64,000 nucleotides of DNA from Cellulosilyticum sp. (GTDB lineage: Bacteria; Bacillota; Clostridia; Lachnospirales; Cellulosilyticaceae). The stretch lies in NCBI GenBank assembly GCA_017941635.1, contig JAGAVZ010000263.1:1-64000 (forward strand), in the 5' to 3' direction. Positions within the stretch are counted from its first letter, which is position 1. Each line of letters opens with the position of its first letter. Under the pieces are notes generated by a model. The model was given only the letters and a program-made list of their open reading frames with translations, did no database searches and was not told where the DNA came from. Below, one piece after another: positions 28,157-28,360 of this stretch. Position numbers and translations under genes: made by a program.

Positions 28157-28185
28157 TTGACAATTTATGAGGTACGATATATCAT
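28157..28185 (+). promoter_or_regulatory. gdhA promoter
   Basis: Perfect TTGACA at 28157-28162, 17-base spacer, TATCAT at 28180-28185. Expected start near 28192, immediately before the leader terminator. Confidence 0.7.
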
Positions 28186-28197
28186 AACTTATATAAA

Positions 28198-28248
28198 GGC
28201 AAAGGCGTCTTTAAGGATAATACCTTGAAGATTCTTTTGCCTTTTTTT
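28198..28248 (+). terminator. Leader terminator (attenuator) upstream of gdhA
   Basis: GGCAAAGG pairs with CTTTTGCC and an inner stem TCTTTAAGG/CCTTGAAGA closes a six-base loop ATAATA (28217-28222); TTTTTTT follows. There is no gene upstream on this strand, and the promoter directly precedes it, so it must stop gdhA transcripts early unless prevented. The six-base loop on a 9-bp stem resembles ANTAR targets, but the loop has A rather than G at position 4 and only one such hairpin is seen. Confidence 0.7.
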
Positions 28249-28360
28249 GTTGCCTTTTGTATCAATTGGAAGGTAGAGAAGGTATTTGAGAAATAGATCA
28301 AAAAGAAAAAATAATAGTTTAGTAGTAAGCTATATTGTTTTTTAGTTGGGAGGATAAAAA

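Follow-up and report, generated by a model that had tools for sequence, protein, structure and literature searches.

The leader of the gdhA gene of Cellulosilyticum sp. is very likely a transcription attenuator that answers to an ANTAR protein; the divergent glnA-ANTAR operon beside it most likely encodes this antiterminator. In the stretch of 64,000 nucleotides that we analysed (the window), gdhA, the gene under this putative control, occupies positions 28361–29695 of the forward strand and encodes a glutamate dehydrogenase with both of the corresponding Pfam domains. Upstream and on the opposite strand lie glnA (26713–27951), identified as a glutamine synthetase gene by domain search, and, on its 3' side, the gene for a 200-aa protein (26102–26704) consisting of a pseudo-receiver and an ANTAR domain; the two are probably cotranscribed. 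The ANTAR domain scores above the curated cut-off (PF03861, E-value 2e-15, 56.8 bits compared with 27.3), and the first-pass annotation, made from the sequence alone, was right to assign an ANTAR protein to the neighboring operon.

The predicted promoter of gdhA is of the sigma-70 type (TTGACA-17-TATCAT, 28157–28185, forward strand), agrees with the consensus at 11 of 12 positions and places the transcript start at about 28192. It is one of only two sites with an 11/12 match in 16 kb, a region where promoter-like sites overall are not enriched. An intrinsic terminator, identified on the same strand by folding, follows the -10 box after about 10 bases and precedes gdhA by about 115 bases; its stem lies at 28195–28244 and a tract of seven U at 28242–28248. 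The folding energy of the leader (28191–28250) is -27.1 kcal/mol compared with -9.0 ± 2.4 kcal/mol for shuffled sequences (z = -7.6), none of 200 shuffles being as good, which bears out the earlier statement that a strong terminator starts within bases of the predicted gdhA start. That no upstream gene needs this terminator, as had also been stated, agrees with the gene map, where no gene lies directly upstream on the forward strand. A weaker promoter-like site (28286–28315, 10/12 positions) on the 3' side of the terminator could serve as a bypass, at a strength that is itself at chance level. Known riboswitches and T-boxes were ruled out, as nothing exceeded the gathering threshold of any Rfam family in the window or in the attenuators of 18 relatives, and so was leader-peptide attenuation, the gap between transcript start and terminator being too short for an open reading frame.

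The 5' arm of the terminator can alternatively fold into an ANTAR-type hairpin, UAAAGGC[AAAGGC]GUCUUUA (28194–28213, forward strand), which we consider the candidate antiterminator. Its stem comprises 7 bp and is closed by C28200:G28207, compared with the minimum of 3 bp and the C:G closing pair expected of ANTAR targets, and its hexaloop (28201–28206) carries the characteristic A1 and G4. The importance of A1, G4 and the C:G closing pair was established by eut mutation and NasR SELEX, and the loop, of the form AANGRN, together with its closing pair, fits both the eut consensus AGCAANGRRGCUY and the NasR SELEX motif (PMC3369931, PMC7496416). Hairpins of this type with at least seven pairs occur once per strand in the 64-kb window, and in relatives, too, the hairpin follows soon after the -10 box. 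The terminator fold pairs five of the six loop bases and all seven bases of the 3' strand of the hairpin; because the loop and 3' strand thus form the terminator 5' arm, the hairpin and the terminator are mutually exclusive, the arrangement known from ANTAR targets. By itself the hairpin contributes -5.1 kcal/mol, and a fold of the first 64 nt that is forced to include it is 19 kcal/mol less favorable. Being so much weaker than the terminator, it would need a bound protein and, with RNA polymerase only about 20–30 bases from the U tract, binding would have to be fast.

The first-pass annotation overlooked this hairpin, the better ANTAR candidate, and turned instead to the inner part of the terminator. 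The inner stem with a six-base loop described there is present (AUAAUA, 28217–28222, forward strand), with 10 bp rather than the 9 reported, but its proposed role as an ANTAR target has to be abandoned: the loop has A1 but A in place of G4, the closing pair is G:C, and the hairpin is not conserved.

A motif scan of the organism's own genome found no other convincing site at nitrogen genes, and a scan of the window found no ANTAR-type hairpin in the leader of its glnA. In the same genome, the bare 12-mer is not clearly enriched over a reversed control and is therefore not evidence outside a promoter or gene context. The terminator downstream of gdhA (29716–29767, forward strand) carries a comparable element, its 5' arm forming AAAGAC[AAAGGU]GUCUUU (29716–29733) and its minus strand AAAGAC[AAAGGC]GUCUUU. 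In L108, a relative, glnN follows the element that occupies this position; in the window, the hairpin might be a remnant or might act on the downstream short open reading frame and CarD-like gene.

We scanned 295 genomes of the order for a promoter followed, after 4–14 bases, by GAC[AAWGRY]GTC. The pattern yielded 17 matches, 14 of which stand before nitrogen-assimilation genes: asnB (5), amtB (2), gdhA (2), and one each of glnA, glnN, gltB, nadE and a glutamine-type (glnQ-type) ABC transporter, the genes being named by their translations, not by family search. A reversed pattern gave a similar raw count, so that the number of matches is not in itself evidence; the evidence lies in the gene association. 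When G4 was changed to another base, none of the 11 matches fell at a nitrogen-assimilation gene, and when A1 was changed, none of 7 did. Across the 295 genomes, A1 and G4 of the loop are thus each required for the association with nitrogen genes.

Leaders selected by the encoded protein gave the same picture. Among 30 amtB genes chosen by protein similarity alone, without use of the motif, 25 leaders contain a C[A..G..]G hairpin with a stem of at least 3 bp, compared with a mean of 2.0 and a maximum of 6 in shuffled leaders. For gdhA, the count is 29 of 88 leaders (shuffles: mean 7.0, maximum 17), or 14 of 88 when at least 5 bp are required (mean 1.0, maximum 5). Some amtB leaders (L172, L180, L163) contain two complete attenuators one after the other, both equipped with a hexaloop hairpin and a terminator. 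Comparison of leaders in relatives for covariation, which the first-pass annotation had recommended as a check, was informative: across 38 relatives, the stem scores 0.805 compared with 0.215 for shuffles and at most 0.19 for slid structures, and this signal belongs to the hairpin of the terminator 5' arm. The three inner stem pairs were a selection requirement in this set; the two outer pairs, which were not selected on, account for 30 double changes. Where the loop takes part in the terminator stem, as it does in 42 attenuators, its second base is always A and its fifth a purine in 40 cases, neither position having been selected; the constant A could also result from base-pairing to the U tract. 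Absence of the element from L061 (92%), the nearest gdhA relative identified by name, shows that it is not universal at gdhA. What is conserved is the attenuator as a class, with exceptions among gdhA leaders.

The distribution of ANTAR genes links these hairpins to ANTAR proteins, a connection that we infer from genome content and gene neighborhood. Of 116 genomes overall, 68 have an ANTAR gene, but every genome whose amtB leader bears the motif has one (25 of 25), as does every pattern-positive genome (16 of 16). Two genomes in the set of 30 amtB loci (G010, G028) have no ANTAR gene, and neither has the motif at amtB; the motif is also missing at the amtB examined in three ANTAR-bearing genomes. 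ANTAR genes are, moreover, frequent neighbors of motif-bearing genes. Five genomes place an asnB site some 2 kb away from the ANTAR gene, G188 has its site between the ANTAR gene and glnN, locus L115 has the order site-glnA-ANTAR-site-gdhA, and in L132 glnA and gdhA diverge as they do in the window, with a site at both.

In the genome assembly studied here, 26102–26704 is the only ANTAR gene found, and its product is the presumed ligand of the 28194–28213 hairpin. Its receiver part does not qualify as that of a response regulator: Response_reg scores 22.7 bits, below the cut-off of 30.2, and the phospho-acceptor Asp is an Asn (in DLVIINTPLP). Because the phosphorylated Asp of the receiver is replaced in this manner, the signal probably arrives through a partner protein or ligand, not through a kinase, and glutamine synthetase is a candidate partner. 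Aligned with EutV, for which the RNA contacts have been described (PMC8934654), the protein keeps E160 (Glu170), K149 (Lys159) and M172 (Met182), including the Glu that contacts G4 and the essential Met; Y164, R168, N173, R175 and R177 are replaced by His, Glu, Asp, Cys and Thr, respectively, with the loss of several basic residues.

What sets the gdhA leader apart from the known ANTAR targets is its single hairpin. Such targets have, by definition, two hairpins, and deletion of the first (P1) abolishes eut induction (PMC3369931); a single eut stem-loop binds poorly (PMC3369931), and the binding of NasR to one hairpin is about tenfold weaker (PMC7496416). By the two-hairpin definition of an ANTAR target RNA (Ramesh 2012), the gdhA leader falls outside the class: no second C[A..G..]G hairpin occurs within 35 bases in the window. 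Upstream there is no room for one, because 28194–28213 starts only about 2 bases past the predicted transcript start. The first-pass annotation had already remarked that a second hairpin was not visible, which is true here and in 41 of the 42 related attenuators, where a second canonical hairpin within 35 bases was found once upstream and never downstream (expected, 0.2 each). The single hairpin is accordingly a property of the class and not a defect of the gdhA copy. Action through one hairpin is also plausible on structural grounds, given the argument that a single EutV dimer is unable to contact both hexaloops simultaneously (PMC8934654). Forms with two hairpins also exist, for example one before glnN in G188 (L156 and L216, the same site; linker about 20 nt) and one before gdhA (L130; linker 0 nt), both with linkers outside the 5–12 nt range of eut.

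As a sub-case of the ANTAR attenuator, the leader might nonetheless be a two-hairpin target in which AAGG[AUAAUA]CCUU (28213–28226) acts as a degenerate second hairpin, a version that we regard as unlikely. Its loop begins with A and it lies directly 3' of the first hairpin; furthermore, in the gdhA leaders L073, L075, L097, L150 and L151 the canonical hairpin is followed, some 7–10 nt on, by GGAC[NACUNU]GUCC, whose loop has U as its fourth base and which may be a second hairpin in modified form. However, position 4 is A or U in these structures, a change that lowers eut induction, the closing pair at 28213–28226 is G:C, and in the 42 attenuators a second canonical hexaloop is not above chance.

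Two explanations that dispense with an ANTAR protein were weighed against the same data. The terminator could be constitutive, keeping gdhA expression low or stopping stray transcripts, with the ANTAR-like hairpin a by-product of an A-rich arm. An arm that starts with AAAGGC, and so pairs with the U tract, is common among terminators, the small hairpin has little stability, and a few hexaloop-bearing terminators do occur at unrelated places; but the bases 5' of the loop, which a terminator does not need, covary with those on the 3' side, the loop variants lose the nitrogen-gene association altogether, and only 46 of the 477 terminators in the fetched loci carry an ANTAR-type hexaloop hairpin, most of them before nitrogen genes. 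Considering, too, that the forward strand has no gene directly upstream whose transcripts would have to be stopped, we find a constitutive terminator improbable. A genuine attenuator whose single hexaloop hairpin is recognized by a non-ANTAR protein or a small molecule would accommodate the departure from the two-hairpin definition, but A1, G4, the C:G closing pair, the AANGR loop and the gene set all point to ANTAR, as does the co-occurrence in 25 of 25 and 16 of 16 genomes, while a small-molecule sensor of the typical riboswitch kind would be larger than 20 nt, and the hairpin matches no Rfam family. Such a recognizer seems to us very improbable. The initial suggestion of a variant ANTAR target or another antitermination device sensing nitrogen state thus survives in part: the attenuator, very probably of the ANTAR type and linked to nitrogen, is retained, and the inner hairpin as its target is not.

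The ANTAR-controlled attenuator would operate as follows. The first RNA to emerge (28194–28213) would fold into the small hairpin, whose bases double as the terminator 5' arm, and about 30 bases later the strong terminator would be completed. As long as no active ANTAR protein is present, the hairpin (-5 kcal/mol) would give way to the terminator (-27 kcal/mol) and transcription would stop about 57 bases in. When the nitrogen state activates the ANTAR protein, the protein would hold the hexaloop, with G4 in the protein's pocket, the 5' arm would be unavailable, the terminator could not close, and RNA polymerase would read into gdhA. That the ANTAR protein binds is inferred here from sequence, as are the direction of the response to nitrogen and the kind of signal. 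The device would function as the eut and nas leaders do, yet falls outside the two-hairpin definition, and may represent a one-hairpin form of the ANTAR attenuator.

By setting, the closest described regulator is NitR of Clostridium saccharobutylicum, a clostridial ANTAR protein of ammonium assimilation whose gene lies beside glnA. When nitrogen is limiting, NitR reportedly brings about antitermination at GS/GOGAT genes, its targets according to the review, which mentions neither gdhA nor a one-hairpin architecture (PMC6316151). The eut system of Enterococcus faecalis shares with the gdhA leader the A1/G4 hexaloop, the C:G closing pair, the 13-nt consensus, a hairpin overlapping the terminator 5' arm, nitrogen-related genes and an ANTAR protein nearby (PMC3369931). 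It differs in requiring two hairpins 5–12 nt apart, compared with one at the extreme 5' end here, and EutV is a phosphorylated response regulator, whereas the ANTAR protein of the window is a pseudo-receiver protein with gdhA as its putative target. AmiR-AmiC and NasR-nasF likewise rely on ANTAR antitermination at a leader terminator, and AmiR, which is among the closest solved structures to the ANTAR protein of the window, is also a pseudo-receiver protein controlled by a partner; these systems differ in their two-hairpin leaders, amidase or nitrate genes and other sensory partners.

The glnA-ANTAR-gdhA unit may be a horizontally acquired regulator-plus-target cassette. In this region (24908–29767), glnA is only 51–52% identical to its counterparts in genus mates and gdhA 66–69%, compared with 75–90% identity of the flanking DNA. 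The identity of the flanks, which glnA and gdhA do not share, led us to reject contamination of the assembly as the source of the contig. A second gdhA is present in the genome, and an IS1595-type transposase adjoins glnA and gdhA.

Very probably, judging from the leaders compared, the same switch operates before genes for glutamine synthetase, ammonium transporters and asparagine synthetase across the order. We lean, with reservations, towards a broader proposal, that single-hairpin ANTAR attenuators, with the hexaloop in the terminator 5' arm and often at the transcript start, form a large class and control nitrogen assimilation (glnA, glnN, amtB, asnB, gltB, gdhA) across this Lachnospiraceae-rich order; the literature search covered open-access papers, and some of the sites may have been described before. 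If the proposal is true, the second hairpin, thought to be essential for ANTAR antitermination, would be dispensable in nature. This bears on the puzzle that eut needs two hairpins in vivo, yet the EutV-RNA structure offers one dimer no simultaneous hold on them, and natural one-hairpin attenuators would make the sufficiency of one hexaloop directly testable. Control of ammonium assimilation in these abundant gut Clostridia has been little described, and a compact regulon of attenuators governed by a single ANTAR protein would provide both a mechanism and a motif for finding its targets.
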